A stretch of 42,942 nt of DNA, from assembly GCA_017465155.1 (NCBI GenBank), contig JAFTWV010000045.1:1-42942 (forward strand), in the 5' to 3' direction. Numbering within the stretch: position 1 is the first letter of the stretch; each line of letters opens with the position of its first letter. This document shows, one piece after another, positions 5,861 through 24,852 of the stretch. The translations under genes and the position numbers were made by a program. The stretch comes from Clostridia bacterium. GTDB taxonomy: Bacteria; Bacillota; Clostridia; Christensenellales; Aristaeellaceae. Below the pieces are notes generated by a model, which had not been told where the DNA came from, searched no databases, and saw nothing but the letters and a program-made list of their open reading frames with translations.

Positions 5861-5891
5861 TGAACGTCATAGAGAAAAGAGGCTCCCGTCC

Positions 5892-6410: not shown

Positions 6411-6501
6411 GACGATCCGGCTGAGAGGAAAAAACGGCAGTTCGCGCAGCACGCGCCTGACAGAGTCCTTTGGCCAATACCAACGGAATGAGGTTTCACA
6501 T

Positions 6502-8481: not shown

Positions 8482-8491
8482 CGGCGCGCAA

Positions 8492-8784
8492 AAGCGCAGA
8501 CTCATGCGGAGTCTGCGCTTCAGACTGTCAAAAAAGCTTCACGGGAGGTGTCGGAGGGCCCGCAGGCCCTCTGACTGTAATCGTATCGCGGGGCTTTGCC
8601 GCGCGGGCGGGGCGGTTTCGGCATCAGCCGAAACCATTCCTTACACTTTTCACGGCCGTCAGCCTTGGCTGACAGTGAAAAATGCCCGCTTCCGCAGAAG
8701 CGGAACCTCTTCCCCTTCTCGAAAAAGTGGCCGCAGCCACTTTTTCGACATACTGAAGCGCAGACTCATACAGAGCCTGCGCTT
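8492..8784. repeat. Hairpin array bracketed by two copies of one terminator-like hairpin
   Basis: Seven or more stem-loops occur in about 290 bases. The first (8492-8520, 12-bp perfect stem) and the last (8756-8784, followed by TTTTCTT) are copies differing at only 3 of 29 positions. Between them are stems at 8551-8574 (10 bp), 8587-8603, 8614-8635 (9 bp), 8647-8681 (two nested stems), 8686-8703 (7 bp) and 8719-8748 (13 bp). Three of these loops are the same tetraloop, CGCA. The last hairpin is a good terminator for the CotH gene. No protein-coding sequence is evident between 8482 and 8935; the remaining 150 bases before the ZIP gene show nothing clear. Confidence 0.75.
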
Positions 8785-8935
8785 TTCTTGTATGCGTTTG
8801 CTGTGGGATACACCGGTGATGAAGAAGACCGCATGCGCATAAACATTGCGCATCGGGGAGAGCGTAACCATGCTGCCCCGGTAAAAACAGGTATGGGCAA
8901 CGCCCGGACTCCGTGAAAAGCCGGAAAAACGGCGC

Positions 8936-9751
8936 TTATCCCAGCGCCACGTCAAGGATCATCATCAGCGTAAATCCGGTCAGTGTTGCGATAGTCATCA
9001 GGGCCGGGCGGCGGCTGCGCTGACTCTCCGGCACCAGCTCGGCGATCACCACAACGACCATTGCACCTGCGGCAAAGGAGAGCGCAAAGGGAAGAATCTC
9101 CTGCACATGTACTGCCAGAAGCGCACCCAGCACGCCGGCAACAGGCTCGACAACCGCACTCAGCTGCCCGTAGAAGAACGCGCGGGAACGGTTCATCCCC
9201 TCCCGCCGCAGCGGCAGGCTGACGGCCGCGCCCTCGGGGAAGTTCTGCAGACCGATGCCCAGGGCCAGCATCCATGCGCCTGTCAGTGCAGCGGAGGTCG
9301 GCATGGCAGCGAGTGCACCGAAGGTCACGCCCACGGCAAGTCCCTCGGGGATGTTGTGCAGCGTGATGGAGGACGTCAGCAGGATGGAACGGCGGTGGCT
9401 GTCACTGACTGCCAGATGGTGCGGCAGCCAGCGGGACAGCAGCCTGTCGCAGACGAGCAGCAGCAGCCCGCCGCAGAGGAAGCCCGTTGCCGCCATGATA
9501 AACGGGGACTGCCCGAGCGTCAGGGCCAGCTCAACGGCTGGACTCAGCAGCGACCAGTAGGACGAAGCAAGCATCACGCCTGCGCCAAAGGCGAGCATTG
9601 CATCCATCATCAAGGGGGTGGCACGCTTTGTCAGCAATACAAGGGCTGCTCCGGCAGCGGTGAGCAGCCAGGTCATGATCGTTGCCAGAAGAGCCTGCCA
9701 CATGGGAGATATTGTTAACAGTTCGCCCACGGCAAACCGCCTCGCTTCCAT
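8936..9751 (-). CDS. ZIP-family divalent metal transporter
   Basis: This integral membrane protein of about 271 residues has eight predicted hydrophobic segments. The ZIP hallmark HNIPEGLAVG lies in the fourth helix and the partner motif NFPEGAAVSLP in the fifth; these form the metal-binding site. The family imports Zn2+, Fe2+ or other divalent ions into the cytoplasm, and this sequence is closest to the GufA/ZupT-like bacterial branch. The start is uncertain: ATG at 9751 is listed, a GTG at 9730 has AGGCGG at good spacing, and a GTG at 9787 is also in frame. The gene is divergent from the SNF2 helicase gene. No metal-responsive operator was recognised. Confidence 0.88.
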   Translation of the reverse strand: MEARRFAVGELLTISPMWQALLATIMTWLLTAAGAALVLLTKRATPLMMDAMLAFGAGVMLASSYWSLLSPAVELALTLGQSPFIMAATGFLCGGLLLLVCDRLLSRWLPHHLAVSDSHRRSILLTSSITLHNIPEGLAVGVTFGALAAMPTSAALTGAWMLALGIGLQNFPEGAAVSLPLRREGMNRSRAFFYGQLSAVVEPVAGVLGALLAVHVQEILPFALSFAAGAMVVVVIAELVPESQRSRRPALMTIATLTGFTLMMILDVALG

Positions 9752-9890
9752 ATTGGGATGCCACAGCCTATGCAGCGCGTGTTTCACCGGTGCGTCTGCG
9801 TATGAGTTTTGAAAAAATGTTGAAAAGATGAGCTTTGCCAGCAGGGATTTTCATATCGGAAGCAGAAGTTATCAGAGTTGCCATTTTGAG

Positions 9891-9924
9891 AGCGCCATGT
9901 ATCCGGCTGCGGATGCGGGGCGCT
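9891..9924 (+). other. Nested hairpin in the helicase leader
   Basis: Arms AGCGCC (9891-9896) and GGCGCT (9919-9924) enclose a second stem, ATCCG-GCTG-CGGAT (9901-9914). The hairpin is followed by TTCATT and sits 39 bases before the helicase start, so it could be a weak attenuator or a chance structure. Confidence 0.3.
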
Positions 9925-9962
9925 TTCATTGCGGTATGCATCGAATTTGGAGTGATCATTGC

Positions 9963-12900
9963 ATGATTCAGATTCCTTATACGTTGCGGACGCTGGCCGG
10001 TGAAGAAGAGACGCGCATGGGCGATCGTCTCTTCCGTGCGGGGCGCGTACGCATTATGGAGCAGAGTGCAAAGCTGCTGCGCTGTCACGTGGTGGAGGAG
10101 GGCCGTTACGAGGTGACCTTCACGCCGGACGGCAGCGGCAGGTGCATCTGCCAGACCTTTCAGGATGCCGGCGCGTGCCGCCATGTGGTTGCTGCGATGT
10201 TGGCTTGTCAGGATGCGGGCGCGCTGGATGAAATGCAGCGCAGGAAGGCCATTGCATCCGGCCCCCGCCTGATGGCTGCGATGGAAAAGACCCTCCCGGA
10301 GGACGGTACGCTGCGGATGGGTATACGCCTGATTGCAGAACCCGTCCGTACGGATGAAGCTCCCCGGCTGAAGATGGTGATGCTCATCGGCGAGGAGCGG
10401 CTGTATGTCGTCAAATCCATCCCGCAGATGCTGGACGCCATCGAAGCTGGTACACCCATCGAATTTGGCAAGGGCTTCACATTCCATCCGGAGTGGATGC
10501 GCTTCGGCCCCGTGGAGAACCGGATTCTGTCCATCCTCCGGGCGATGTGCATGGCTCAGAAGGAAGCGGGCATCGCCCTGCGCGGCGCGGAGCAGCGTGA
10601 GCTGGCACTGCCTGATCCCTTTGCCGAGGCCATCCTGAACGAGCTGCGGCATCTGCCCTTCAGCATCAAGGACGGCGATAATACCCATGCGGTCAAGCGT
10701 GTGTTTCAGACGCGTGTTCCGCTGCATTTCCGTGTCTCCTCGGACCTTCGCGGCCTGACGGTGACAGCTCGCTTTCCCCGGGAATTCCGCCCGCTGACGG
10801 CGTCCTGTGCCTATGCGTTGGTGAATGAAAAGGTCATCGCGGTGGAGGAGGAGCAGCGTTCCATCCTGCGTGTGCTGTATGCGGAGCAGATGGGCGGTCA
10901 ATGCAGCTTTGACTATCCCGTACGCGAGGCAGCCCGTGTGATCGGCGAGCTGGTTCCCTTCCTGCAGATGACGGCGGTGGTGGAAATTGCCGAGGATCTG
11001 CAAAAGCAGCTCATCCGCATGCCGATGGTGGCGCGCGTGTACCTTGACCGTGCAGCCAACGGCCGCGATGTGGTGGCCCGGGCGCAGTTCCGCTACGGTG
11101 ACCGGGAGATCGATCCCTTTGACGAAACGCCCCTGCCGGAGAATATTTCCCGCAATGACAAGCTTCTCCTGCGTGATGCAGCGGCGGAGCGCCAGGTGCT
11201 GGATGCGCTGGGCGCCTCGGGCTTCATTGTCAGCAAGGGGCATGTGTACCTTGCCGGACAGGATGCGATCTTTGATTTTGTCAGCGAAGGCGTCGGGAAG
11301 CTGCAGCAGCTGGCAGAGGTGTATCTGTCCAACGATTTCAAGAAGATGACGCCCCGGCGTCCCCGTTTTGCCGGCCGTATGCGCATGAACGGTACGGCGC
11401 TGGAGCTGAAGTTCACCGAAAGCGGCGAACCGGCAGAGGAAATATACGCCATCATGGAAGCGCTGGCCCGCCGCCGCAGGTACTTCCGTCTCAAGGACGG
11501 CTCCTTCCTTGATCTGAGTGCCATGGAGGAATGGCAGCCGCTGGCTGACAGTATCTACGAGGTCGCCTCGATGGAGGGCATTGACGCTATGTCCTGCAGC
11601 GCGGATACCATGCAGCTGCAGGCCTACCGTACCTGCTATATGAAGAGCCTGCTGGAGAGCCTCCAGCTGCCTGTGGAGATCGACAGCTCTGTGGATGAAA
11701 CGGTGCGTGCGCTTGTGGAGCCGATGCCGGATTCTGTCAAGCTGCCGGGCGGCTTATCCCTGCGTCCCTATCAGCAGCGCGGCTTCCAGTGGCTGCATAC
11801 GCTTGATCAGCTGCATATGGGCGGCGTGCTGGCGGACGATATGGGCCTGGGCAAGACGGTGCAGGTCATCGCGTTGCTGCTGGCGACCCGGGAGCCCGGC
11901 CAGACGAGCCTCGTTGTAGCGCCCACGACGCTGACTTACAACTGGCTCAGCGAGCTGGAACGCTTTGCTCCGGACTTGTCCGTGATGGTAATGGCAGGCA
12001 GTGCTGCGCAGCGTGCCAGCCAGATCCGCCATGTCAAGGAGGTTCGCGATGTGGACGTGCTCATCACGTCCTACCCGCTGATCCGGCAGGACATAGACCA
12101 GCTCACCGACATAGACTTCCGCTTCGCCATCCTTGACGAGGCGCAGCACATCAAGAATGCCGGAAGCAAGGGCGCCATCGCCGTCCGTCAGCTGAAGGCC
12201 CGTACCCGTTTTGCACTCACCGGCACGCCTCTTGAAAATGGCGTGGGCGAATTGTGGAGCATCTTCAATTTCGTGTTGCCGGGGTATCTGCTGTCGTACA
12301 GCGCCTTTATGCGCCGCTATCAGGATGGCACCGATGCAGAGGATCTGCGCCGTCGTATCAGTCCCTTCCTGATGCGCCGCCTGAAAAAGGAGGTGCTGAC
12401 CGAGCTGCCCGACAAGATCGAGAACGTCATGACCAGCCAGATGAGCCCCGAGCAGTCGAAGGTCTATCAGGCCACGATGCTGCGTCTGCGGGATCGCGTG
12501 GACTCCATTGTCAAGGAGAAGGGCTTCGAACGCGGACGTACGGAGGTGCTGGCAGCCATTACACAGCTGCGTGAAATCTGCTGTCATCCGGCGCTGGTGA
12601 TGGAGGACTACACCGGCACCTCCGGCAAGCTGGATATGCTGCTGGATATTCTGCCCGAGGCCATTGAAAAGGGGCGGCGCGTGCTGCTGTTCAGCGCCTT
12701 TACATCCATGCTCAAGATTCTCAAGCGCGAATTGGAGGCCAGCGGTTACGAAACCATGTACCTTGACGGCGATACCCCCGCCCAGAACCGCGTGCAGATG
12801 TGCGAGCAGTTCAACGGCGGACAGGGTTCGATCTTCCTGATTTCCCTGAAGGCCGGCGGTACGGGTCTCAACCTGACCGGCGCGGATATGGTGATCCACT

Positions 12901-13130
12901 ACGATCCGTGGTGGAACCCTGCAGCGGAAGATCAGGCCACCGATCGTGCCTATCGCATCGGCCAGACCCGCAAGGTGGAGGTGATCCGCCTGGTGACCCA
13001 CGGCTCCATCGAGGAACAGGTGGTTGCTCTTGGCCAGCGCAAGAAGGCGCTCTTTGATCAGCTGATCAAGCCGGGCGAGACCCTCGTGGGCGGCCTCAGC
13101 CCGCAGGAGATTCTGTCGCTGTTCCAATAA
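9963..13130 (+). CDS. SWIM zinc-finger SNF2-family helicase
   Basis: This 1055-residue protein starts with a SWIM-type zinc finger (about residues 62-81, CxC...CxH in CICQTFQDAGACRH). A long bacterial SNF2-associated region follows (about 130-580). The two RecA-like lobes of a SNF2 ATPase come last. Visible motifs are Walker A DDMGLGKT near 627, DEAQHIKN near 724, LTGTPLENG near 750, and the C-terminal lobe with GGTGLNLTGAD, DPWWNPAAEDQATDR and RIGQ (about 960-1000). Such proteins translocate on double-stranded DNA or remodel nucleoprotein; their bacterial role is largely unknown. The start at 9963 is chosen because GGAG lies 10 bases upstream; the frame is open for 45 more codons that look non-coding. 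It appears to be a single-gene unit. Confidence 0.9.
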   Translation: MIQIPYTLRTLAGEEETRMGDRLFRAGRVRIMEQSAKLLRCHVVEEGRYEVTFTPDGSGRCICQTFQDAGACRHVVAAMLACQDAGALDEMQRRKAIASGPRLMAAMEKTLPEDGTLRMGIRLIAEPVRTDEAPRLKMVMLIGEERLYVVKSIPQMLDAIEAGTPIEFGKGFTFHPEWMRFGPVENRILSILRAMCMAQKEAGIALRGAEQRELALPDPFAEAILNELRHLPFSIKDGDNTHAVKRVFQTRVPLHFRVSSDLRGLTVTARFPREFRPLTASCAYALVNEKVIAVEEEQRSILRVLYAEQMGGQCSFDYPVREAARVIGELVPFLQMTAVVEIAEDLQKQLIRMPMVARVYLDRAANGRDVVARAQFRYGDREIDPFDETPLPENISRNDKLLLRDAAAERQVLDALGASGFIVSKGHVYLAGQDAIFDFVSEGVGKLQQLAEVYLSNDFKKMTPRRPRFAGRMRMNGTALELKFTESGEPAEEIYAIMEALARRRRYFRLKDGSFLDLSAMEEWQPLADSIYEVASMEGIDAMSCSADTMQLQAYRTCYMKSLLESLQLPVEIDSSVDETVRALVEPMPDSVKLPGGLSLRPYQQRGFQWLHTLDQLHMGGVLADDMGLGKTVQVIALLLATREPGQTSLVVAPTTLTYNWLSELERFAPDLSVMVMAGSAAQRASQIRHVKEVRDVDVLITSYPLIRQDIDQLTDIDFRFAILDEAQHIKNAGSKGAIAVRQLKARTRFALTGTPLENGVGELWSIFNFVLPGYLLSYSAFMRRYQDGTDAEDLRRRISPFLMRRLKKEVLTELPDKIENVMTSQMSPEQSKVYQATMLRLRDRVDSIVKEKGFERGRTEVLAAITQLREICCHPALVMEDYTGTSGKLDMLLDILPEAIEKGRRVLLFSAFTSMLKILKRELEASGYETMYLDGDTPAQNRVQMCEQFNGGQGSIFLISLKAGGTGLNLTGADMVIHYDPWWNPAAEDQATDRAYRIGQTRKVEVIRLVTHGSIEEQVVALGQRKKALFDQLIKPGETLVGGLSPQEILSLFQ

Positions 13131-13224
13131 GAAAAACGGCGCTCTGCGCGGAACGGTAGGAGCAATCCTGCTTCTCCCCCGACCTCCATGCGTGAGCACC
13201 CCCAGAATCCCGCGCAGCCCCGAG

Positions 13225-13300
13225 GAAAAACGGGTCAAGGGATGAAATCTCTTGCGGAGTACAGGGGCTTGTCCCCTGGCCGCCGGAGACCTCCGCTTTC
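13225..13300. repeat. Member of a dispersed intergenic repeat (short form)
   Basis: The stretch GAAAAACGGGTCAAGGG, continuing to GGCCGCCGGAGACCTCC, resembles the repeat copies at 22032-22147 and 39504-39612 at its head and tail, but lacks their central part. It contains the small hairpin AGGGG-CTTGT-CCCCT. The flanking sequence from 13131 to 13591 otherwise holds only a terminator and a promoter; no gene is evident. Confidence 0.5.
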
Positions 13301-13312
13301 CCATGATTTATG

Positions 13313-13352
13313 GCCAGCATCCGTCAGGCACGCGCCGGGATGCTGGCTTTTT
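13313..13352 (+). terminator. Intrinsic terminator downstream of the helicase gene
   Basis: A 10-bp stem, GCCAGCATCC (13313-13322) with GGATGCTGGC (13338-13347), is followed by a T-run. It would stop read-through from the helicase gene before the CotH promoter. Confidence 0.75.
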
Positions 13353-13416
13353 CTGGCGGATGCGGAGGAAAAGGCGGTCAAGGTCGTGAATGTTGTGTGA
13401 CGGAGGGCCGCAGGGC

Positions 13417-13446
13417 TTGCGGAAACATGCCGATTTGTGGTACAAT
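13417..13446 (+). promoter_or_regulatory. Promoter of the large CotH gene
   Basis: TTGCGG (13417-13422) and TACAAT (13441-13446) have an 18-base spacer, with TGG directly before the -10. The predicted start near 13453 gives a leader of about 140 bases. The leader contains a hairpin with arms CTCCG and CGGAG, but no riboswitch class I can recognise. Confidence 0.65.
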
Positions 13447-13591
13447 GCAAGAACGGTTGCCCTTCATTCGTTACATATGTGACGGGGCTCCGAACCGGAG
13501 TGATCCGGGAAACAAAAGCAAGTGATATTCCGCGTTTTCGCGTTATGCCCATGGCCCCGGGGATCGCCCGGCAGCCTGAAAGGATGACAGT

Positions 13592-16500
13592 ATGCAGCCT
13601 GTACAGCCCGGAAAGCGAACGGTACGGCGTGCCCATAGCACGCAGCCTGCCGCTGAAAAGCCCGCAGCGGTCAAACGCCGCCAGCGGATGCGCAGGATCG
13701 GCAATATGTTTGCCATGGTGTCCCTGCTGGTGATCGTGCTCCTGATCGTGCTGGTCAGCCCCAAGGAGCCTGTTCGCCATGCCTACTATACCATCAGCAC
13801 GGAGGATAACCTCGTCCATACCAGTGCCTCCAGCGGCAGTGAGTATGAGGGACTGGTGATCAGCGAGGTCATGACCTCCAACCAGACCGCTATGCCCGAT
13901 GAGAACGGCGAATTCTCCGATTGGATCGAGATCTGGAACAGCTCTCCCAATGCGATCAATCTTGAAAATGTCGGCTTGAGTGACGATGAGCTGTCCATCA
14001 GCTTCCTCTTCCCCAAGATGACCATCGCGGCGGATGAGCGTATCGTCGTCATCTGTGACAAGACGAATCAGGCTGTCGCAGGAAAGCCGCTGCATGCCAA
14101 GTTCGGTCTGAGCACCAACGGCGAGACCATCTCCCTCTACGATCCTAATGCGTATCTGATTGATTCCGTCAAGACGCCCATCATGTCCGCAGACGAGAGC
14201 TATGCGCTGACCTCGGACGGGAAATGGGTGCAGACCGCCGAGTTCAGCCCGGGGTATGCGAATACCTCTGAGGGTTATCTGGCCTACCGCAACGCTACCA
14301 TGGTGACGGACGGCGCGCTGATTATCAGCGAGATCTGCCCCGATCCCCTGACTGGTTACCGGGACGCTGACGGCGAGCTGTGCGACTGGGTGGAGCTGTA
14401 CAACACCACTGATCGGCCGATCAGCCTTGCCAATTATGCCCTGTCCAACAAGGAAAACAAGCCCTTGAAGTGGCGCTTCCCCGAGGGTGCGTATGTCGCC
14501 CCCCACGGCTACTACATCGTCTACTGCTCCGGCAAGGATGTGGTGATCAACAGCGTTACGGATGTGCCGCACGCGAGCTTCCGCATCAGCGCGGAGCATG
14601 ACACCATCGTGCTTTCCGACAGCCGGGGCCGTCTGGTGGATCGCGTCACCATTGACAATATCCCCGAGGACGCCTCCTATGCCCGCAATGCGGACGGCAG
14701 CTTCTCCGTCCATCTGCGTCCCACGCCGCAGCTGCCCAACACTACCAGCGGCGCGAACCAGATGGACGTGTACCTGCGCGCGCTGAACGATACGGGCGTA
14801 TATATCACGGAGGTCATGGCCTCCAATGATTCCACCGAGACTACCGTCGGCTCCGATTTTGTGGATTGGATTGAGCTGTACAATCCGACGGCGGTCACGG
14901 TGGATCTGTCGGGGTTCGGCCTGTCTGATAATCTGGGCCGTGCCCGCAAGTGGCAGTTCCCGGCCGGGTCGTACATTGCGCCGGGGGAATACAAGATCAT
15001 CTGGTGCGACGGCGATGCAGCAAAGAACACCGCCTCCGAGCCGCATACCTCCTTCAAGCTCCTCAAGGGCGGCTCTGAGACGCTTGTGTTTGCAGACCCG
15101 ACGGGTAAGATTCTTGACAAGGTCGTGCTGCCTGCGGTACCAACCAATGTGTCCTACGGCCGCACAATGGGGCGTGAGGGCTTTTTTTATTACGACGTAC
15201 CCACGCCCGGCACGCAGAACGGGAGCAACGGTTTCCTTGGCTATGCGGAGGCTCCTTCGCTGACGGTTGAGCCGGGCATGCATGATCAGGGCATCAAGGT
15301 TGGCTTCACTGTTCCGGAGGGCACGACCGTCTTCTATACCACGGACGGCTCCACGCCCACCCAGTACAACAGCACGGCGTATGTCGGCCAGCAGATTGAG
15401 CTGAACTTTACAACGGTGCTTCGTGCCCGGGCCTTCCCGGTTGACCCGCAGTATCATGAGAGCGCTGTCGTCACCGGCACCTATCTCATCAACGCCTATC
15501 ACGAGATGCCTGTGGTGTCCGTCACGATCGATCCGTACCTGCTGTGGAACGAGGAAAATGGCATGCTCGCTGCCGGCCCGGATATGGTCAAGGAGGGGCC
15601 CGGTATCCTGCCCTTCCTGAACACGATCTATCGTGCGTACGGCAAGGAGCCCCGTGAGGGCTACATGGAGTATTACGATACGGAGGGCAATCAGGTGCTC
15701 AGTCAGGGCGTCGCGGTTGGCCTGATCGGCGATTACTCCCTTGACCTGCCGCAGAAGTCCATGAAGCTGCGCGCAAAGTCCCTCTACGGCGAAAATACCT
15801 TCGACGCCGCGCTCTTCGCGGATCGTCCCTATACGGAGTACAAGTCCCTTGTCCTGCGTAATTCCGGCAACGACGGCGTCTGGACCCGCCTCAAGGACGG
15901 CTTCCAGTCCCGGCTGCTGGACAAGTATGGCGCGACGGTCATTCATCAGGCGTGGATGCCTGTTGCTGTGTACCTCAACGGTACCTACTGGGGCCACTAC
16001 AACCTGCGTGAGCGTGTTGACCGCTTCTTTGTTGCCCAGCACGAGGGCCTGACCCTTGACGAGGCGGAGAACATGGACATCCTTGTAGGAAACGGCACCG
16101 TGGAATTTGGCTCCAATACCGAATACCGCGCCATGATCAAGAAGCTCAAGGCCAGTGATCCGGCCAACAACGCGGAGGATCGTGCCTATCTGGACGCGAA
16201 TGTCGATGTAGACAACCTGATCGAATACATGGCACTGGAGATGTTTGTGGGCAACTCCGACATTGGTAACACCCGCTTCTACCGTCTCCACGGCATTGAT
16301 CCGGAGACCGGCGAGCGCTACAAGTGGAAGTGGATCTGGTACGACGTGGACTATGGCCTGTGGGAGTCCTCCTTCAACAGCGCTTACAGCTACACAAAGC
16401 AAAAGGGCATGGGCCAGAAGAACATCGACAACACCATCTTCATGACCGTGCTGTCCGTTCCTGAATACAAGGATCGTTTCCTGCGCAAGCTCGGCGACAT

Positions 16501-16810
16501 TTTCCAGACCTTCACCACCGAATACATGACGGAGGTATTGGCCGAATGCAAGGCGGAAATTGAGCCGGAGCTGAAGATGCACTTCGCCCGCTGGGCGGAG
16601 GAGCATGACCAGATGGTCATCGCCGAGTGGCCCACGACAGTAGACGGCGCATACCGCTACTGGGAGCGCCACATCAGCCGACTGCAGAACACCCTCAAGA
16701 AGCGTCCGAATCTGCTCTGGGGCTATGTGAAGGAAGCATTCAAACTGACCGATGCGCAGATGATCGAGTATCTTGGCCCGCAGCCGGAGATGCCCGCAGA
16801 TGCGGTGTAA
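13592..16810 (+). CDS. Membrane-anchored triple-LTD CotH protein
   Basis: This 1072-residue protein has a basic cytoplasmic N-terminus (1-36) and one transmembrane helix (about 37-57). Three lamin-tail domains follow (about 85-200, 240-370 and 400-540), each with a VISEVM/ISEIC/ITEVMASN start and a DWIELYN-type strand. A chitobiase-C-terminal-like domain (about 555-645, YTTDGSTPT) precedes a CotH kinase-like domain (about 690-1010) with YTEYKSLVLRNSGN, YLNGTYWGHYNLRERV and WIWYDVDYGLW. The catalytic part should lie outside the membrane. The RBS AAAGGATG precedes the ATG. DUF4956 and VTC polyphosphate polymerase genes follow, so it is probably the outer component of that cassette. The C-terminus is acidic and unanchored. 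Confidence 0.9.
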   Translation: MQPVQPGKRTVRRAHSTQPAAEKPAAVKRRQRMRRIGNMFAMVSLLVIVLLIVLVSPKEPVRHAYYTISTEDNLVHTSASSGSEYEGLVISEVMTSNQTAMPDENGEFSDWIEIWNSSPNAINLENVGLSDDELSISFLFPKMTIAADERIVVICDKTNQAVAGKPLHAKFGLSTNGETISLYDPNAYLIDSVKTPIMSADESYALTSDGKWVQTAEFSPGYANTSEGYLAYRNATMVTDGALIISEICPDPLTGYRDADGELCDWVELYNTTDRPISLANYALSNKENKPLKWRFPEGAYVAPHGYYIVYCSGKDVVINSVTDVPHASFRISAEHDTIVLSDSRGRLVDRVTIDNIPEDASYARNADGSFSVHLRPTPQLPNTTSGANQMDVYLRALNDTGVYITEVMASNDSTETTVGSDFVDWIELYNPTAVTVDLSGFGLSDNLGRARKWQFPAGSYIAPGEYKIIWCDGDAAKNTASEPHTSFKLLKGGSETLVFADPTGKILDKVVLPAVPTNVSYGRTMGREGFFYYDVPTPGTQNGSNGFLGYAEAPSLTVEPGMHDQGIKVGFTVPEGTTVFYTTDGSTPTQYNSTAYVGQQIELNFTTVLRARAFPVDPQYHESAVVTGTYLINAYHEMPVVSVTIDPYLLWNEENGMLAAGPDMVKEGPGILPFLNTIYRAYGKEPREGYMEYYDTEGNQVLSQGVAVGLIGDYSLDLPQKSMKLRAKSLYGENTFDAALFADRPYTEYKSLVLRNSGNDGVWTRLKDGFQSRLLDKYGATVIHQAWMPVAVYLNGTYWGHYNLRERVDRFFVAQHEGLTLDEAENMDILVGNGTVEFGSNTEYRAMIKKLKASDPANNAEDRAYLDANVDVDNLIEYMALEMFVGNSDIGNTRFYRLHGIDPETGERYKWKWIWYDVDYGLWESSFNSAYSYTKQKGMGQKNIDNTIFMTVLSVPEYKDRFLRKLGDIFQTFTTEYMTEVLAECKAEIEPELKMHFARWAEEHDQMVIAEWPTTVDGAYRYWERHISRLQNTLKKRPNLLWGYVKEAFKLTDAQMIEYLGPQPEMPADAV

Positions 16811-16849
16811 GATTTCCCTTGTAAATTGCTGAAATATGCGCAAAAATGT

Positions 16850-16878
16850 TTGCGGATACGGCAGGAATGCTGTATAAT
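16850..16878 (+). promoter_or_regulatory. Strong promoter before the DUF4956 gene
   Basis: TTGCGG (16850-16855) and a perfect TATAAT (16873-16878) are 17 bases apart, 57 bases before the start codon. The membrane protein and polymerase can therefore be transcribed without the CotH gene. No terminator separates the CotH gene from this promoter. Confidence 0.75.
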
Positions 16879-16934
16879 GGACAAAGCGGGCGCAAGTCCG
16901 AGTGAATGTGATTGAGTATGAAGGAGGAACCTCC

Positions 16935-17660
16935 ATGTCTGATCTGGCTCTTCTGAGCAGTCTGGGCGTCGGCAATCTGACCGTGTCCGGTACCGGCAAT
17001 AACAATGCCCTGTCTGCGTTTTTCGCGGAGCAGTTTGCCAACCTGACGCCCTGGTCCGTGGGCTTGGGCTTGATCTTTGGCTTTATTGTGGGCATGATCA
17101 TTGCCTTTGTGTACAAGCGCTGCTATCGCGGCGTGCTGTATAGCCCGAACTTCGCCGTCACGCTGGTGATGATGACCCTGATCACGACCCCGGTGGTTAT
17201 GTGTATCGGCTCCAACATCGCGCTGTCGATGGGCATGGTGGGCGCGCTGTCCATTGTCCGCTTCCGTACTGCGGTCAAGGATCCGCTGGATACTGCCTAT
17301 ATGTTCTGGGCGCTGACCATGGGCATCCTGCTGGGTGCGGAGCAGTATATCATCTCTCTGGTGGTGGTGGCGGCGATCTCCGTCATCCTGTTCCTGCTGA
17401 ACATGTTCAAGTTCTCCAATCCCAATGGCTATCTGCTCGTCCTGCACTATGACGAGGATGCGGAATACGACATCAATCAGCAGCTGCGCCGCAGCGTCAA
17501 GCACCGCCGTCTGCGCTCCAAGACCGTCACCCGCGCTGGTGCTGAGATGACCTACGAGGTTCGCCTGGACAACAAGCAGGATCTCGTTGCTCTAATGCTT
17601 AATATCGAGGGCGTTCACGACGCAACCCTTGTCGCCTGCCAGACCGAAGCCGGCGCTTAA
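16935..17660 (+). CDS. DUF4956 membrane protein
   Basis: This 241-residue protein has four predicted transmembrane helices between about residues 35 and 160. The family hallmark SMGMVGALSIVRFRTAVKD sits at the third, with charged residues close to or inside the membrane. A soluble C-terminal domain (about 165-241) carries paired basic residues (RRSVKHRRLRSK). AAGGAGG before the ATG at 16935 sets the start. The function of DUF4956 is not established. Its position directly upstream of a VTC-type polymerase suggests that it forms the membrane part of that system, perhaps a channel or transfer subunit. That role is inferred by analogy with yeast VTC, where catalytic and membrane domains act together. 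Confidence 0.88.
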   Translation: MSDLALLSSLGVGNLTVSGTGNNNALSAFFAEQFANLTPWSVGLGLIFGFIVGMIIAFVYKRCYRGVLYSPNFAVTLVMMTLITTPVVMCIGSNIALSMGMVGALSIVRFRTAVKDPLDTAYMFWALTMGILLGAEQYIISLVVVAAISVILFLLNMFKFSNPNGYLLVLHYDEDAEYDINQQLRRSVKHRRLRSKTVTRAGAEMTYEVRLDNKQDLVALMLNIEGVHDATLVACQTEAGA

Positions 17661-17678
17661 GGGGCGCTGCCCCTTAAG
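17656..17678 (+). other. Hairpin overlapping the DUF4956 stop codon
   Basis: A perfect 10-bp stem, CTTAAGGGGC (17656-17665) with GCCCCTTAAG (17669-17678), includes the stop codon in its first arm. There is no T-run, so it looks like an RNA-stability structure or part of the adjacent repeat rather than a terminator. Confidence 0.5.
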
Positions 17679-17867
17679 GATCCCTGCCAGAGGGATTTAT
17701 CCCTCTGGACTCCCTTTTCGCGATTGAGGCGCGTGCCTTCGGTTGTGATTGCACGCGCGTGAGGGATGCCCCTTAAGGGGCCCTGCCGGAGGGGGTTGTC
17801 CCTCTGGACTCCCTTTTCGCGATTGAGTCGCGTGCCTTCGGTTGTGATTGCACGCGCGTGAGGGATG
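17669..17867. repeat. Two tandem copies of a 99-bp repeat
   Basis: Bases 17669-17768 and 17768-17867 are direct repeats with a period of 99, differing at a small number of positions, mainly near the start. Each copy begins GCCCCTTAAGG and includes CTCTGGACTCCCTTTTCGCG and GTGATTGCACGCGCGTGAGG. They fill most of the gap between the DUF4956 and VTC genes. The repeat keeps an open reading frame on the minus strand because 99 is a multiple of three, but no ribosome binding site or protein family supports coding. Confidence 0.9.
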
Positions 17868-17922
17868 GCTGGTGTGTTTTGCAGCAGCACAGATACTCTT
17901 CTTTGAAAGGAGGCGTTGAGCC

Positions 17923-18630
17923 ATGGCGGCCAATATTCCGCTTCGGCATGAGTTGAAGTTCTTTATCAGCGAAATGCAGTATCATGTTTTATCCCGCCAG
18001 CTGGATCACGTCCTCTGGCGCGATCCCAACGGCGATGAAAACAATGAGTACCACATCCGCAGTCTGTACTTTGACACCATTTTCAACGATGCGTATTATG
18101 ATAAGCTGGATGGCGTTCAGAACCGCAATAAGTATCGTATCCGCATCTACAACCTGTCAGACCGGGTGATTAAGCTGGAATGCAAGACCAAGGTGGGCAG
18201 CCTGATTTCCAAGCGCAGCCTGTCCATTCCACGGGATCTGTGCGATCAGCTGGTTGCGGGTGATCCCACTGATCTGGAACGTACCAGCAGCGGCCTGCTG
18301 GGCGATATGTATCGAGAGATGACCTGTGGGCTGCTGCGGCCGGTGGTTATTGTAGACTATGTGTGCGAGGCGTACCTGCATCCGGCGGAGGAGGTGCGCA
18401 TCACCTTTGACAAGCAGCTCCGGACGGGATTGCGCAGCATCGATCTGTTCAATCCGAACGTCCCGACGATTTCCCCCTTTGACAACAATGAAATGATCCT
18501 TGAGGTCAAGTTCAACCGTGTGATGCCCCCCTATATCCGCGATCTGCTGTGCACCTACTGCCCGAATGCGCTGCAGAGCGCCATCAGCAAATACACCTGG
18601 TGCCGCCGTTTTGAGGGGATGGAAGCATGA
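17923..18630 (+). CDS. VTC-domain polyphosphate polymerase
   Basis: This 235-residue protein consists almost wholly of a VTC domain, a triphosphate-tunnel fold. Tunnel residues are visible in order: RHELKFFIS near residue 8, YHIRSLYFDT near 42, NKYRIRIYN near 68, IKLECKTK with SKRS near 84-98, VDYVCEAY, VRITFD and MILEVKFN near 192. In yeast Vtc4 the corresponding basic residues bind ATP and the growing chain, and the domain makes polyphosphate from ATP. There is no transmembrane helix, so membrane association would need the upstream DUF4956 protein. AAAGGAGG precedes the ATG. No promoter was found in the 260-base gap, so co-transcription with DUF4956 is likely. Confidence 0.9.
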   Translation: MAANIPLRHELKFFISEMQYHVLSRQLDHVLWRDPNGDENNEYHIRSLYFDTIFNDAYYDKLDGVQNRNKYRIRIYNLSDRVIKLECKTKVGSLISKRSLSIPRDLCDQLVAGDPTDLERTSSGLLGDMYREMTCGLLRPVVIVDYVCEAYLHPAEEVRITFDKQLRTGLRSIDLFNPNVPTISPFDNNEMILEVKFNRVMPPYIRDLLCTYCPNALQSAISKYTWCRRFEGMEA

Positions 18631-18770: not shown

Positions 18771-18791
18771 GAAAAGACAGGAGGAATGCAC

Positions 18792-19730
18792 ATGAACGGA
18801 GCATCCCTGATCGAATTAGAATCGAGTTTGCGCGCGAAGGATGAGCATTTGGTTCTGAAGCGCGACGCTGATATGGCACGCTGTACGACGCTGCACCTTG
18901 GCGGCCCGGCGGATCTGATGGCCTCGCCCAGCAACGCGGAGCAGATTCAGCTTCTGCTGATGGAGGCGCACCGGCTGAATGTGCCCGTCACCATCATCGG
19001 CAACGGCAGCAATCTGCTGGTCAAGGATGGCGGCATTCGCGGCCTTGTGATCCGCGTGTGCCGTGACATGCAGGCCATTGAGGTATCCGGCGATCGCATT
19101 CGCGTACAGGCCGGTGCGATGATGAGCACCCTGTCCATGGCAGCGGCGGATTGTCATCTGGGCGGCCTGACCTTTGCCAGCGGCATTCCCGGCACAGTGG
19201 GCGGCGGCGCATACATGAACGCCGGCGCTTACGGCGGTGAAATGAGCCAGGTGGTCACGTTGGTGGAGGGATTCAACATGGTTGGCGAGCCCTTCCGCTA
19301 TGGCAGGCCGGATATGCGTTTTGCCCATCGTTATTCCCGGCTGATGAAGGAGAATAAGCTGATCACGCATGTGACTGTGCAGCTGCCGCAGGGCAAGCGG
19401 GAGGAACTGCTGGCCGAAATGGTCGAGTTCAACCGTCGTCGTGCGGAGAAGCAGCCTCTGACGCAATTCAGCGCCGGCAGCACCTTCAAGCGTCCCCCGG
19501 AAGGCTATGCGTCCCAGATGGTTGATGAATGCGGCTTAAAGGGCTACACCATTGGCGGCGCACAGGTCAGCGAGAAGCACGCCGGCTTCCTGGTCAACCG
19601 CGGCGGCACTGCAGCAGATTTCCTGGCTCTGATGGGCTATGTGCAGCGCGTTGTTTATGAGCAGAAGGGCGTCATGCTGGAGCCTGAGGTTCGCATTCTT
19701 GGTGAGGATGCACCTGTCGCGCGCGCGTAA
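18792..19730 (+). CDS. murB: UDP-N-acetylenolpyruvoylglucosamine reductase
   Basis: This 312-residue cytoplasmic flavoenzyme catalyses the NADPH-dependent second step of UDP-MurNAc synthesis for peptidoglycan. FAD-binding motifs LGGPADL, GNGSNLLV and PGTVGGGAYMNAGAYG are present. The catalytic Ser lies in AGSTFKRP and the catalytic Glu in LEPEVRILG. The motif pattern and length fit the shorter type II MurB of Firmicutes. ATG codons occur at 18786 and 18792; AGGAGG at 18779-18784 gives proper spacing only to 18792. It heads an operon with rapZ, whiA and an HPr-like gene, an order common in Clostridia. Nothing unusual is seen in the protein. Confidence 0.97.
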   Translation: MNGASLIELESSLRAKDEHLVLKRDADMARCTTLHLGGPADLMASPSNAEQIQLLLMEAHRLNVPVTIIGNGSNLLVKDGGIRGLVIRVCRDMQAIEVSGDRIRVQAGAMMSTLSMAAADCHLGGLTFASGIPGTVGGGAYMNAGAYGGEMSQVVTLVEGFNMVGEPFRYGRPDMRFAHRYSRLMKENKLITHVTVQLPQGKREELLAEMVEFNRRRAEKQPLTQFSAGSTFKRPPEGYASQMVDECGLKGYTIGGAQVSEKHAGFLVNRGGTAADFLALMGYVQRVVYEQKGVMLEPEVRILGEDAPVARA

Positions 19731-19775
19731 AGCGGGGGGCACTGCCTTTCTTATTTTCCACAAAGGAGGAACATC

Positions 19776-20675
19776 ATGCGTTTTTTACTCGTTACGGGTC
19801 TGAGCGGCGCAGGAAAGACGTCCGTTAACCGATATCTGGAGGATATGGGCGCCTTTTGCGTGGATAATTTGCCGCCAAACATGATGTTCAAAATGATGGA
19901 AGCATTTGAGCAATCGACGATGCGCTGCCCGATGGTCGCCATGGCGGTAGACGTCCGGAGTGCGGAGTTTTTCGATGCAAAGGCTGTCAGCGATCTGATT
20001 GGCGAGACAAGGTCACTCGGCTACAACATTGAATGTCTGTTCCTGGAAGCCAGCGATGAGGCGCTTGTCAGCCGGTACAAGGAGACGCGCCGTGACCATC
20101 CGCTGGCTGATGCAAGCACATCCCTGACGGATGCCATTGTCCGTGAACGCGGCATCATGCAGCCCCTGCGCGAGACCGCGAACTATATCATCGATACCAC
20201 TGCGCTGAAAACACGGGATCTGAAGGCACTTCTGGGCAGCATTTTCAGCGGAGAAAGCCAGTCGACCGCGATGCGTATTGAGCTGTCCTCCTTTGGCTTC
20301 AAGCGTGGACTGCCCCGTCAGGCGGATCTGGTGTATGATGTTCGCTTCCTGCCTAATCCGTTTTACATCAAGGGGCTGGGCAGCCAAACCGGCCTTGATC
20401 CGGCTGTGCGCGAGTTTGTGCTGGGGAATGCGGTTACCGAAGAGTTCCTTGCAAAGATGGAAGATATGCTGATCTTCCTGCTGCCCCATTATCAGGAAGA
20501 GGGCAAGAGCCGTCTGGCCATCGCCATCGGATGCACTGGCGGTGCGCACCGCAGCGTAGCCATTGCGGAGTATCTGGGCGAATTTCTTCAGAGCAAGGGA
20601 TACCAGGTGACGGTCAACCACCGCGATCTGGCATTGGAACAGGCGCATTGGAAGAGCAGCGCGGAGGCAAACTAA
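19776..20675 (+). CDS. rapZ: RapZ/YvcJ nucleotide-binding protein
   Basis: This 299-residue protein matches RapZ (YvcJ). The N-terminal P-loop GLSGAGKTS lies near residues 8-16, then FLEASDEALVSRYKETRR and the DTTALK segment. The C-terminal domain contains GCTGGAHRSVAIAEYL. In E. coli RapZ controls the GlmY/GlmZ small-RNA pathway for amino-sugar synthesis and binds glucosamine-6-phosphate; in Bacillus YvcJ is a GTP/ATP-hydrolysing protein of less certain role. AAAGGAGG precedes the ATG. The stop codon abuts the whiA start, so translation is coupled. The gene normally between rapZ and whiA, yvcK, is absent. Confidence 0.96.
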   Translation: MRFLLVTGLSGAGKTSVNRYLEDMGAFCVDNLPPNMMFKMMEAFEQSTMRCPMVAMAVDVRSAEFFDAKAVSDLIGETRSLGYNIECLFLEASDEALVSRYKETRRDHPLADASTSLTDAIVRERGIMQPLRETANYIIDTTALKTRDLKALLGSIFSGESQSTAMRIELSSFGFKRGLPRQADLVYDVRFLPNPFYIKGLGSQTGLDPAVREFVLGNAVTEEFLAKMEDMLIFLLPHYQEEGKSRLAIAIGCTGGAHRSVAIAEYLGEFLQSKGYQVTVNHRDLALEQAHWKSSAEAN

Positions 20676-21662
20676 ATGTCGTTTTCACTCAACGTCAAGG
20701 ATGAGCTGTGCCGCTTGCCGCTGGGCAAAAACTGCTGCATGCTCAGCGAGCTGACGGCCTTGTATCGCACCAGCGGCAGCTTGTCCTTTCACGGCATGGG
20801 TCGCGTGCAGGTGCAGTATCGCGTGGAGAATGCTGCGCTGGCCCGCCGTATTTTCCGCCTGCTGCGCGCAAGGCTTGGCATCACGCCGAGACTGCATTAT
20901 GTGCAGCATGCCCGTCTGGGCGGTCAGAGAACCTGCGTGCTGAATGTCGGTGATGAGGATAGCCAGCGCCTGATGCTTGCCCTGCATATGATTGAGCAGG
21001 ATGAGGACGGCAGCATCCGCTATCGCCGCACCACCGTGCGTCATCCCATGACGCGCCAGTGCTGCCGAAGGGCATATCTGCGGGCTGCTTTCCTCGGTGC
21101 AGGTACCATGTCCAGCCCGGATAAGGATTATCATTTTGAAATGTCCACGACGGATCAGAGCCTTGTGAAAGAGCTCAGCCGTCTGCTGGAGAAGTGTGAC
21201 CTTCCCGTGAACACCTATGTTCGCAAGGGGCAAACGGTTGTGTATCTCAAGGGTGCACAGCAGATCAGCGATACGCTGGCGCTCATGGGCGCGGCCAACA
21301 GCGTGTTTGCGATGGAGGATATTCGCATCCGCAAGCAGGCCAGAGGCGCGGCTAACCGTGCCATCAACTGCGATGAGCACAACTTTGAGCGGATGCTCAA
21401 TGCCGCAGACGCGCAGGTGCAGGGGATCCGCCGGTTTGTGATTGAAAAGGGTCTGCGCTCACTGCCGCCTGCGCTGCAGGAAATCGCACAGAAGCGTCTG
21501 GACAATACCGATCTGTCTCTGACGGAACTGGGCCAGCTGTTTGAACCGCCGCTGTCCAAGTCCGCTGTGAATCACCGTATGCGCCGCCTGATGGATATCA
21601 TCCGCAAAATGGAAGCGGAGGCCGTGCAGGCACCGACCGATGTACAGGAGGATTTGCCATGA
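20676..21662 (+). CDS. whiA: WhiA DNA-binding regulator
   Basis: This 328-residue protein has the WhiA architecture. An N-terminal LAGLIDADG-like region, with AYLRAAFLGAGTMSSPDKDYHFE, is degenerate as in other members and lacks nuclease residues. A C-terminal helix-turn-helix (about residues 270-315) reads LSLTELGQLFEPPLSKSAVNHR. WhiA controls sporulation septation in actinomycetes and chromosome segregation or cell division in Bacillus. The start codon directly follows the rapZ stop, with GGAGG 8 bases upstream inside rapZ. Its last bases overlap the HPr-like gene in an ATGA junction. Confidence 0.96.
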   Translation: MSFSLNVKDELCRLPLGKNCCMLSELTALYRTSGSLSFHGMGRVQVQYRVENAALARRIFRLLRARLGITPRLHYVQHARLGGQRTCVLNVGDEDSQRLMLALHMIEQDEDGSIRYRRTTVRHPMTRQCCRRAYLRAAFLGAGTMSSPDKDYHFEMSTTDQSLVKELSRLLEKCDLPVNTYVRKGQTVVYLKGAQQISDTLALMGAANSVFAMEDIRIRKQARGAANRAINCDEHNFERMLNAADAQVQGIRRFVIEKGLRSLPPALQEIAQKRLDNTDLSLTELGQLFEPPLSKSAVNHRMRRLMDIIRKMEAEAVQAPTDVQEDLP

Positions 21663-22347: not shown

Positions 22348-24852
22348 TTATGCGTGAAACCGGAAGGACGTGAAGCGGAAGGCCGGTGCGCTGTACACAA
22401 GATACACATTGTGCGTGCCAGTGATGGTCTCGGGAAGGGCAAGCGTAACCTCATTGCCGCCAAATGCCTTGCTTAGCGGAAGGACGGCGGTGGGGACAGC
22501 CTGCACATTGTCCAGCACAATGGATACCGTGCCGTCACAAACAGAACGATATCTGACCGTCAGTGAGTTCGCACCCTCTGTACCAAAGTTGACGCCAGAG
22601 AGCATTGACCAGCTGTTGGCGACCTGTGTATAGAGCACCATGCCGCTGCGGTCAGGCTGCATGGTCACGCCTGCGATGACGGCTGCTGTCGTGGCGGGGA
22701 TATCCTGATAGGGATCAAGAGCCTGTACCTGCGGCACGCCTGTGCGCGTTCCCGCGATCATCGCAATGTGGCCGTCTGCCTCTACATCCATCTTGTCAAT
22801 GAAGGTGCAGCGGTAACCACTGCCAAGGCCGATGGCGCGTTCCAGCGTCTGCGTGTGATAGGCGATGTACCACTGATCCCGGAAGCGGAACATGCAGTGA
22901 TGATTGTTGCCGCCCACGCCGAAGTAGTCGGCAGGATTCTTCAACACGCGATCCGCATACACAAAGGGGCCGAGGGGCGAATCTGCCAGCATGGTGCAGA
23001 TTTCGCCGTTCCGGAAGGGGACAGGCGCATCTGCCGGGACGCTGAAGTTGGTGCAGTAGGAGAAAATGTATTTGCTGCCAGCCTTCACGATACCGCTGTC
23101 CTCGAACAGGTAGGGCGGATTGAAGGCGACAGGCTCACCATTGAGGGAGATCATGTCAGGGCCAAGCTCGCAGCAGCGTGCCGTGCCAGGATCGGCGGCC
23201 CGGCCTTCCGGAACACCGCCGCCCACGTAGATGTAGGCACGCCCGTCGTCATCTACCAGCACAGCAGGATCAAAAAGCCATGTTACGTCTGCGCAGTTGG
23301 GAGTAGCGCGGTTGATGAGCGCGTGCCCCAATGGATCGCGGAAGGGCCCGGCAGGGCTGTCTGCTTCCAGCACGCCGATGCCATTGCCGCTATCGGCAAA
23401 GTACAGGAAGAACTTCTCGCGGCCATTGACATTCTTGTGCGCTGCAGCGGGGGCCCAGGAATTCCGTGCCCATTTGGCAGCGCCATGGGGACCAGCCGCA
23501 AGAATATCGCCATGATCCGTCCAGTTCACCAGATCTGCGGAGGAGATACAGCGCAGCCGGTCAATGGTGCCGTAGCGGTTCGGGCCGACGGAACCGTCAT
23601 CCCCGTAGGTGTAGAAGTCGCCGGTCATGTACAGGTATACTCGGCCGTCGTAGGGCATGGCCCAGGGATCTGCGCCGAAACGTTGTGTCATGACGGGATT
23701 GTGATCATTGGAAGGCTTGTAGGATTGCTCGATGGGGGAGACAGACGGCAGGTCAACGGCATCAAGGCTTGCAGGGATGGCTTCGTCCAGCAGCGCACCG
23801 AAGAACGCGGGCTTCGGCCGCAGCATGCCATCGAAGAAAAGCGGGTAGGTCGGGCCGTTCCAGCCCATCAGCCAGCTGTGATCGTCAGCAAGGCCCCAGA
23901 GGGTGATGCTGTCAATCGGCAGTCCTTCCCGGCGCAGACGGCGCATCATGGCGAAATAATCGCGATAGCGCACGCCCAGCTTCATCTGGGATGCAGGATC
24001 CGCACCGGGGACTCGGATGTCCATCTCCGTGACTTGCAGCGTCAAGCCCAGCGCAGCGAATTCACGGATGGCCCGCTCGTAGTCGGCGAAGTCGGGGTAA
24101 TCCATGCCGATATGGGTCTGCATACCTACGCCGTCGATCACACCTTCGTCAGCAAGACGCTTCACCAGTGCATACACCCAGGGATACTTATCCGGCTGCG
24201 CGACGCTGAAATCATTGTAGTACAGCTGCTGTCCCGCAGTCTGATACTTCCGGGCGGCGCGGAAGGCCAGTGATACGAAATCCTCGCCGAGGGTCTGATA
24301 CCAAAGGCTCTTGGTGCGGAACATGTTTGCCGCCTTATGATCAGGCTCAATGGCCTCGTTCACAACGTCCCATGCGTACACGAGTCCCGGCCAGGTCTGA
24401 TTGACGTAGGTCATTGTGTCGGCAATGCTGTTTTCCATGCGGCGGATGATTGTTTCCCGGTCGGCGAGGGGGGCGTCCGGTTCAATGGCCCAATCCTTCG
24501 CAAAGAACCAGCGGGGCGTCTGGTTGTGCCACACAAGGACGTGGAAGCGTACGGCCATGCCGTGCTTCTGTGCATATTCCATCAGCGGAACAGCAGGGGA
24601 GAAGCACAGGGCTGCGCGGTCATGACTGCCGGAGGCCAGCGTTGCGCTGCGATCCAGCAGGCACTCGGGCTTCATCACATTTTCCGCGGTGATGGAGCTG
24701 AAGTGCTTGCGAACAGCGCCGTCACATTCCGGACGGAACAGCCATTGCGGCGCGACAGCTACGCCCATGCGGAAGTCATCTGCGTAGAAATCCTTCAGGG
24801 AGGGGATCAGGTCTGTTCTGCCCGTGTGGAGATAATCACGGTAAGCGCTCAT
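22348..24852 (-). CDS. GH10 xylanase - GH43 - CBM6 fusion enzyme, cytoplasmic
   Basis: This 834-residue multidomain glycosidase has a GH10 barrel (about 20-355), with acid/base Glu166 in WDVVNEAIE and nucleophile Glu276 in QVTEMDIR. A GH43 five-blade propeller follows (about 385-710), with a probable catalytic Asp395 in GADPWAMP, DPAVLVDDDG in the middle and a Glu in EDSGIVK. A C-terminal CBM6-like domain occupies about 725-834. GH10 cleaves xylan backbones, and GH43 members remove xylose or arabinose. There is no signal peptide, so the substrate is probably an imported xylo-oligosaccharide. AAGGAGAG precedes the ATG. A terminator lies upstream, so it has its own promoter or depends on read-through from the transporter operon. 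Confidence 0.92.
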   Translation of the reverse strand: MSAYRDYLHTGRTDLIPSLKDFYADDFRMGVAVAPQWLFRPECDGAVRKHFSSITAENVMKPECLLDRSATLASGSHDRAALCFSPAVPLMEYAQKHGMAVRFHVLVWHNQTPRWFFAKDWAIEPDAPLADRETIIRRMENSIADTMTYVNQTWPGLVYAWDVVNEAIEPDHKAANMFRTKSLWYQTLGEDFVSLAFRAARKYQTAGQQLYYNDFSVAQPDKYPWVYALVKRLADEGVIDGVGMQTHIGMDYPDFADYERAIREFAALGLTLQVTEMDIRVPGADPASQMKLGVRYRDYFAMMRRLRREGLPIDSITLWGLADDHSWLMGWNGPTYPLFFDGMLRPKPAFFGALLDEAIPASLDAVDLPSVSPIEQSYKPSNDHNPVMTQRFGADPWAMPYDGRVYLYMTGDFYTYGDDGSVGPNRYGTIDRLRCISSADLVNWTDHGDILAAGPHGAAKWARNSWAPAAAHKNVNGREKFFLYFADSGNGIGVLEADSPAGPFRDPLGHALINRATPNCADVTWLFDPAVLVDDDGRAYIYVGGGVPEGRAADPGTARCCELGPDMISLNGEPVAFNPPYLFEDSGIVKAGSKYIFSYCTNFSVPADAPVPFRNGEICTMLADSPLGPFVYADRVLKNPADYFGVGGNNHHCMFRFRDQWYIAYHTQTLERAIGLGSGYRCTFIDKMDVEADGHIAMIAGTRTGVPQVQALDPYQDIPATTAAVIAGVTMQPDRSGMVLYTQVANSWSMLSGVNFGTEGANSLTVRYRSVCDGTVSIVLDNVQAVPTAVLPLSKAFGGNEVTLALPETITGTHNVYLVYSAPAFRFTSFRFHA

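Follow-up and report, generated by a model that had tools for sequence, protein, structure and literature searches.

VTC and DUF4956 genes form a near-obligatory pair with an exchangeable, predicted exported partner in a Clostridia bacterium and across its phylum

Here, we describe a gene cassette of a Clostridia bacterium (assembly GCA_017465155.1, contig JAFTWV010000045.1) that encodes a CotH, a DUF4956 and a VTC protein, and we report that VTC and DUF4956 form a nearly obligatory pair that mostly lies beside a third, exchangeable gene for a predicted exported protein. The whole stretch of DNA analysed, hereafter the window, comprises 42,942 nucleotides. Our best reading, which we hold with slightly better than even confidence, is that the cassette encodes a membrane-bound polyphosphate synthase with an MgtC-like subunit, which serves an exported partner. 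An earlier note, made from the letters of the window alone, had proposed the row of three genes; all three open reading frames (ORFs) are indeed present, on one strand and in the order CotH-DUF4956-VTC, and every Pfam match exceeds its curated cut-off:

13592..16810, plus strand: LTD3-CotH gene; Pfam matches to LTD (three times, 8e-50), CotH (6e-34), CHB_HEX_C_1 and Fn3_assoc, all above the curated cut-offs.
16935..17660, plus strand: DUF4956 gene; Pfam E 5.4e-14, 53.1 bits against a cut-off of 30.6.
17923..18630, plus strand: VTC gene; Pfam VTC 5e-34, 118.3 bits against a cut-off of 23.
18364..18366, plus strand: TGC codon for Cys148 within the VTC gene, aligned to the Vtc4 Arg361 position; relatives have Arg.

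Several observations couple VTC to DUF4956. First, in an even sample of 299 genomes from the phylum, many of them drafts, DUF4956 and VTC were each found in 46 genomes, and the two lists are identical; the objection that the families might rarely occur together elsewhere, which the earlier note had raised against its own proposal, therefore clearly fails. Second, DUF4956 lies within 2.5 kb and on the same strand for 53 of the 55 VTC matches, with VTC as the first gene in 45 of these pairs and DUF4956 in eight, including the window. Of the two unpaired matches, one lies 150 bases from a contig end, in a genome (G062) whose DUF4956 gene likewise lies close to such an end; the other is a partial match of 181 positions (G270:C23). 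Third, 19 of 25 relatives have VTC, and it is in these same 19 that DUF4956 occurs. Fourth, when 80 loci were fetched by DUF4956 alone, a VTC match turned up within 1 kb in 78 of them; VTC is one gene away in another (L172), and the last (L141) ends at a contig edge. These 80 named loci, taken with 7-kb flanks, are the best 80 of 507 and are biased because they were chosen as nearest to one DUF4956; in one of them (L127), VTC appears only as a 73-residue fragment in the ORF call. Fifth, of 14 control genomes scored for presence, three have VTC and these three also have DUF4956, i.e., Bacteroides ihuae, Corynebacterium glutamicum and Methanosarcina acetivorans, and the co-occurrence thus extends beyond the phylum and into archaea. 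Finally, the pairwise distances within the two families correlate (r 0.95, 128 pairs, from 128 of the 132 loci with both core genes), and in 80 loci with CotH the coefficients are 0.93 for VTC-DUF4956, 0.79 for VTC-CotH and 0.82 for DUF4956-CotH. We judge that VTC and DUF4956 very probably act as one functional unit.

The third gene is predicted to be exported and is interchangeable. CotH was found in 41 of the 299 genomes, 37 of which also have VTC, leaving nine VTC genomes without CotH and four CotH genomes without VTC, and all three families lie within 3.5 kb in 32 of 53 survey loci (in the adjacency count, second fragments of split CotH matches were omitted, which leaves the genome sets unaffected). 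Where the gene after the pair is not CotH (44 genes), 10 of these genes were scanned; nine matched Cthe_2159 and one DUF4405. Among the 132 loci with both core genes, 85 have only CotH within 3.5 kb, 35 only a Cthe_2159-like gene, one has both and 11 have neither; if the two were independent, both would be expected in ∼23 loci (86 x 36 / 132). The counts for Cthe_2159, regulators and kinases come from hidden Markov models (HMMs) built from our own protein clusters rather than from Pfam, with ORFs picked longest-first. A tree of DUF4956 was built from 128 rows, of which 116 carried a third-gene label; on it, parsimony needs 12 label changes compared to 29.7 in shuffles, and five of them are forced by well-supported branches; this was a quick tree with long branches, including that of the window. 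The few changes suggest that the pair swaps its third-gene partner now and then and keeps each for a while. A response regulator and a histidine kinase both lie within 3.5 kb in 58 of the 132 loci. In loci L072, L074, L076 and L078 (DUF4956-first; for L078 only VTC is present, at a contig end), the next gene encodes a protein of 386-389 residues with an export-like N-terminus, which is LTD-like and leucine-rich by eye and has no CotH domain by HMM.

Within the genus the arrangement is stable. CotH, DUF4956 and VTC are grouped in 16 of 17 genus relatives, the exception being a locus that begins near a contig end (L222), and murB adjoins VTC in 16 of 17, the gaps falling in loci near contig ends. 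In the distant relatives L229-L235, CotH also adjoins the pair, in the order CotH-VTC-DUF4956 where coordinates are readable. That three unrelated genes are neighbours by chance would be in line with the four CotH genomes that lack the pair, but the identical genome sets, the adjacency of VTC and DUF4956 and the genus-wide synteny make this explanation negligible, and for VTC-DUF4956 it is already refuted.

The window VTC protein is predicted from its sequence to be a soluble, cytosolic polyphosphate polymerase. As the earlier note had seen for the window, VTC has no membrane segment: just two of 134 VTC proteins exceed the hydropathy threshold, and 132 do not. The family profile aligns with yeast Vtc4 (3g3q) at E 7.5e-20 with the catalytic residues aligned. 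An alignment of 25 family members has 15 invariant columns, and the positions of Vtc4 K200, R264, R266, K281, R361, R373, E426 and K458 are conserved or nearly so; beyond R264, R266, E426 and K458, we take these positions to be significant as well. The window protein keeps the equivalents of K200, R264, R266, K281, R373, E426 and K458, and its tunnel residues are intact except residue 148. Vtc4 numbering was assigned by offset and verified on R264, R266 and E426 in the available text of PMC9911596 and on K458 in that of PMC4641920. The window VTC thus shares the tunnel polymerase domain and the catalytic residues with the yeast VTC complex; however, the yeast complex has VTC membrane subunits, whereas Pfam finds on the window protein the VTC domain only and no SPX, so that the layout of the eukaryotic complex is absent, and its partner is an MgtC-like DUF4956 protein. 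The alignments behind these and the following comparisons hold 25 of 55 VTC (A2), 41 of 54 DUF4956 (A1) and 25 of 36 CotH (A6) sequences, 21 of 25 MgtC loci (A3) and 20 of 26 same-frame pairs (A5).

It is improbable, in our view, that VTC is another tunnel enzyme, e.g., a tripolyphosphatase or a nucleotide-processing enzyme, instead of a polymerase. The tunnel fold hosts several activities according to the available part of PMC4641920, and the first strand motif of VTC carries Glu (E8) at its second position, a Thr in Vtc4, but the K458 position is kept and VTC is the sole Pfam match. Moreover, of the four acid-patch glutamates that the same part of PMC4641920 names for tripolyphosphatases, the first is replaced by R and the last by K in VTC, as in Vtc4 and thus polymerase-like, as judged by motif matching and not by alignment. 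We judge polyphosphate to be the probable product. PPK1, the one other polyphosphate enzyme searched for, was not found in 33 of the 46 VTC genomes, in which VTC may thus be a main source of polyphosphate. VTC as a substitute for PPK1 is a pattern we did not see, PPK1 being present in 13 of the 46 VTC genomes compared to 43 of 299 overall. We found no report of activity for any bacterial VTC protein in the literature examined, as far as its text was available. In one genus relative (L217, G300:C149), the VTC gene carries an in-frame TAG in the conserved C-terminal E-x-K.

The DUF4956 protein is predicted, from its sequence and a structural model, to be a polytopic membrane protein that is remotely MgtC-like and has an ACT-like C-terminal domain. 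Its start was read from the sequence as the ATG at 16935, behind AAGGAGG, and not the GTG at 16902. The description of this protein as four-helix was incomplete: in the model, a helix near the N-terminus (21-36) is followed by five further long helices (39-63, 71-91, 93-112, 117-134 and 138-158) and a C-terminal domain (165-234) of b-a-b-b-a-b order, with lower confidence at residues 91-120 (predicted local distance difference test 69-74). In profile-profile alignment with hhalign, the MgtC family PF02308 matched DUF4956 at 97.7% probability (E 2e-12) over 199 columns, compared to 0.6-0.7% for reversed alignments, and the remote homology covers most of the chain, including the ACT-like C-terminus. 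PF02308 itself matches the window protein at E 0.0031 and 18.3 bits, below the cut-off of 31.4, and another DUF4956 gene (G024) at E 7.7e-4 and 20.5 bits; the invariant E-R in the first helix of MgtC has no counterpart in DUF4956. The C-terminal domain resembles 2lqj and 7qa5. Foldseek with the model gave no match at E <=0.001, and the matches listed mainly cover the ACT-like domain, with NikR, ribosomal S6 and MgtC C-termini tied, so that they indicate the fold and not the family. Because VTC has no membrane segment and the polytopic DUF4956 is nearly always present beside it, the idea that DUF4956 supplies the membrane part remains the best inference.

The likeness to MgtC also supports a different explanation, in which DUF4956 is a regulator instead of a channel, working through its membrane part as MgtC does and sensing a ligand with its ACT-like domain to switch VTC or ATP and phosphate metabolism, polyphosphate stays cytosolic, and CotH acts independently on surface proteins. 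An MgtC-like membrane part joined to an ACT-like domain would suit such a regulator, and the available text of PMC12345266 names ATP synthase and PhoR as targets of Salmonella MgtC and reports that in Streptococcus intermedius deletion of the MgtC-type gene raised Pel while no change is reported for deletion of the polymerase gene. However, this explanation leaves unaccounted for why the third gene product is exported in most loci and why CotH and Cthe_2159 change places beside a constant pair, and we consider it rather unlikely.

The window CotH protein is predicted to be a membrane-anchored extracytoplasmic kinase-like protein. Residues 41-55 form a hydrophobic segment; the protein is predicted to be located extracellularly and carries three LTD, a CHB_HEX/Fn3_assoc region and a C-terminal CotH kinase-like domain. 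G713, D761, G801, E807, D890 and D918 are conserved in 25 of 25 aligned proteins and N888 in 23 of 25; we take these residues to be catalytic. A profile match to the solved spore coat protein H (5jd9) has E 3.4e-50. An N-terminal hydrophobic segment is present in 85 of 85 cassette CotH proteins of at least 380 residues compared to 382 of 814 other genes of at least 250 residues, which makes the test a lax one, and in none of three spore-type CotH proteins. Thus, the window protein shares the CotH domain and its conserved, presumably catalytic residues with the spore coat kinase, but differs from it in being predicted to be exported and anchored and in carrying LTD and CHB_HEX. The earlier view of CotH as an outer kinase-like protein agrees with its predicted export and retained kinase residues, but CotH is not obligatory, a Cthe_2159-like gene standing in its place in 35 of the 132 loci.

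The families and the trio are known from earlier work, which we cite from the parts of the text that were available. PMC7112168 lists cotH, poly-phosphate polymerase, DUF4956 and DUF4832 as accessory genes beside pel, a link it makes in streptococci, clostridia and bifidobacteria. PMC12345266 describes the trio beside pel in S. intermedius (SIR_1594, SIR_1593 and SIR_1592), with SIR_1592 as an MgtC membrane domain plus ACT and SIR_1593 as a predicted polyphosphate polymerase, and states that a search elsewhere failed to find the trio. The claim that the function of the set is not established therefore holds for the mechanism, but the set itself has already been described in these two papers. 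In the Gram-positive Pel loci as there described, the same three families are adjacent, as in the window, and CotH is secreted; the window differs in that no pel family was found among its scanned ORFs, in the order CotH-DUF4956-VTC and in a CotH with three LTD. A further printed case of the trio may have gone unrecognised: NELoc-2 of Clostridium perfringens (PMC2879425) contains, in the portion available, the row VTC, 226-residue membrane protein, resolvase, VTC, 222-residue membrane protein and CotH (CP4_0460-CP4_0465), and the 222-226-residue membrane proteins, annotated there as tubulin/FtsZ, may, we suspect, be misannotated DUF4956. In the literature searched, as far as its text was available, we found no account of the strictness of the pair, of its prevalence without pel or of the exchange of CotH and Cthe_2159.

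In our sample, PelG is present in 11 of the 299 genomes, two of which (G105 and G136) are among the 46 VTC genomes, and it lies within 5 kb of one of the 55 VTC matches, in G105, whose second VTC match is ∼24 kb from that PelG. PelG has no match in the window's genome (G000), which is 68.5% complete, and no Pel family was found among the 33 window ORFs scanned, the immediate neighbours being SNF2 helicase, MurB, RapZ and WhiA. A Pel accessory role as the general explanation is therefore rejected for this sample, and the printed remark that the trio is not found outside Pel loci, whose scope is not stated in the available text, fails in it, with the window as a counter-example. A broader version is that the cassette is a matrix-modification module in which an exopolysaccharide, or proteins belonging to it, would be phosphorylated by CotH and bound by Cthe_2159, with Pel as one such client. 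The pel link in streptococci, clostridia and bifidobacteria (PMC7112168), the binding of cellulose and acidic sugars by Cthe_2159 proteins (PMC6712302) and the altered Pel amount and aggregation in CotH and MgtC-type deletions (PMC12345266), each taken from partial texts, are in its favour. The rarity of PelG among VTC genomes and beside VTC speaks against it, Pel being the sole polysaccharide system tested, as does the Pel-linked locus (L104, in G105), where a blastp comparison of the five ORFs upstream of CotH with the ORFs chosen in the other 137 neighbourhoods found no match. We regard this version as unlikely, somewhat more so than the regulator. In L104, the sole Pel-linked cassette of the survey, two tandem CotH genes lie between PelG and VTC (5486-11758).

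Our preferred interpretation, a membrane-bound polyphosphate synthase acting on the envelope, is guided mainly by topology, i.e., a soluble polymerase-like VTC, a membrane partner and an exported protein. We suggest that VTC, soluble at the cytosolic side, would make polyphosphate from ATP with tunnel residues as in yeast Vtc4, and that DUF4956 would dock VTC at the membrane and then either pass the chain outward or gate its synthesis. The third gene would encode an exported client working at the site that the product or effect of the unit reaches; in the window this is the anchored LTD-CotH kinase-like protein and elsewhere a Cthe_2159-like beta-helix protein. The module would serve the cell surface or matrix, and two-component regulator genes often adjoin it. 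Outward transport of polyphosphate has, in our judgement, somewhat less than an even chance. A bolder version, in which CotH uses the exported polyphosphate as phosphoryl donor in a compartment that lacks ATP and Cthe_2159, from a family that binds acidic polymers, holds polyphosphate as a matrix polyanion, is speculative and improbable; in a keyword search of the literature for extracellular polyphosphate as a phosphate donor, no paper combined most of the terms.

Several findings weigh against this interpretation. In S. intermedius, according to the available text of PMC12345266, all four accessory deletions still show aggregation and Pel, and changes are reported for the MgtC-type and CotH deletions and none for the polymerase, which suggests either that DUF4956 does more than export alone or that the phenotype lies outside those assayed. 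The window VTC lacks Arg at the Vtc4 R361 position, having Cys148 where 28 of 28 aligned relatives (L208-L235; L236 yielded no aligned row) have Arg; the Cys may stem from an error in sequencing or a recent mutation, or may mark a real loss. In the Vtc4 alignment, the part covering E426 and K458 is weak when taken alone (i-Evalue 160). A model of a fused VTC-DUF4956 read-through reached a predicted template modelling score of 0.49 (20 rows, artificial linker, no oligomer) and gave no confident arrangement. In 11 of the 132 loci, neither CotH nor Cthe_2159 lies within 3.5 kb, and in the window our HMMs found neither a response regulator nor a histidine kinase. Finally, one DUF4956 gene in G308 (C102) and one VTC gene in G326 (C165) have no partner on their contig, and the distance correlation in part reflects shared species history.

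Around the cassette, the window contains the following features:

6502-8481: gene with LTD, CHB_HEX and CotH (Pfam) and a signal-like N-terminus.
9828-13130: SNF2-type helicase gene, upstream of CotH.
17673..17867, plus strand: intergenic repeat present twice in tandem (96 bp per copy) in the gap from DUF4956 to VTC, with an inverted-repeat core.
18786-21662: MurB, RapZ and WhiA genes, downstream of VTC.

The gene at 6502-8481, which had been put forward as a possible secreted partner, is real and has the domains listed, but it does not stay close to the cassette elsewhere: 12 of 15 genus relatives have an orthologue (75-83% identity), in every case on a contig other than that of VTC in these fragmented assemblies, and we rejected it as a conserved cassette member. 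The repeat, with the core CGCGTGC...GCACGCG, has four diverged matches in the same genome (C66, C109 and two in C115), and we do not count it as belonging to the mechanism. A 1293-residue open frame on the minus strand (13235-17116) is antisense to the entire CotH gene and is probably an effect of composition. Also on the minus strand are genes for a GH10/GH43/CBM6-like protein (22348-24852) and an 862-residue DUF5696 protein (28588-31176; E 1.9e-174). The window's genome has a second VTC-DUF4956 pair (L033, G000:C98:18000-37999, at 12028-13696), with VTC first and adjoining ORFs of 515, 472 and 250 residues; neither CotH nor a Cthe_2159-like gene lies within 3.5 kb of it.

According to the available part of PMC7821199, where CotH on spores obtains its ATP is an unanswered question, and for exported CotH proteins this question is sharper. 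If CotH did use exported polyphosphate, the cassette would represent a system for extracytoplasmic phosphorylation powered by polyphosphate, with an MgtC-like protein as translocator. Altogether, a near-obligatory pair with an exchangeable exported client turns DUF4956, a family to which Pfam assigns no function, and its VTC partner into a testable machine.

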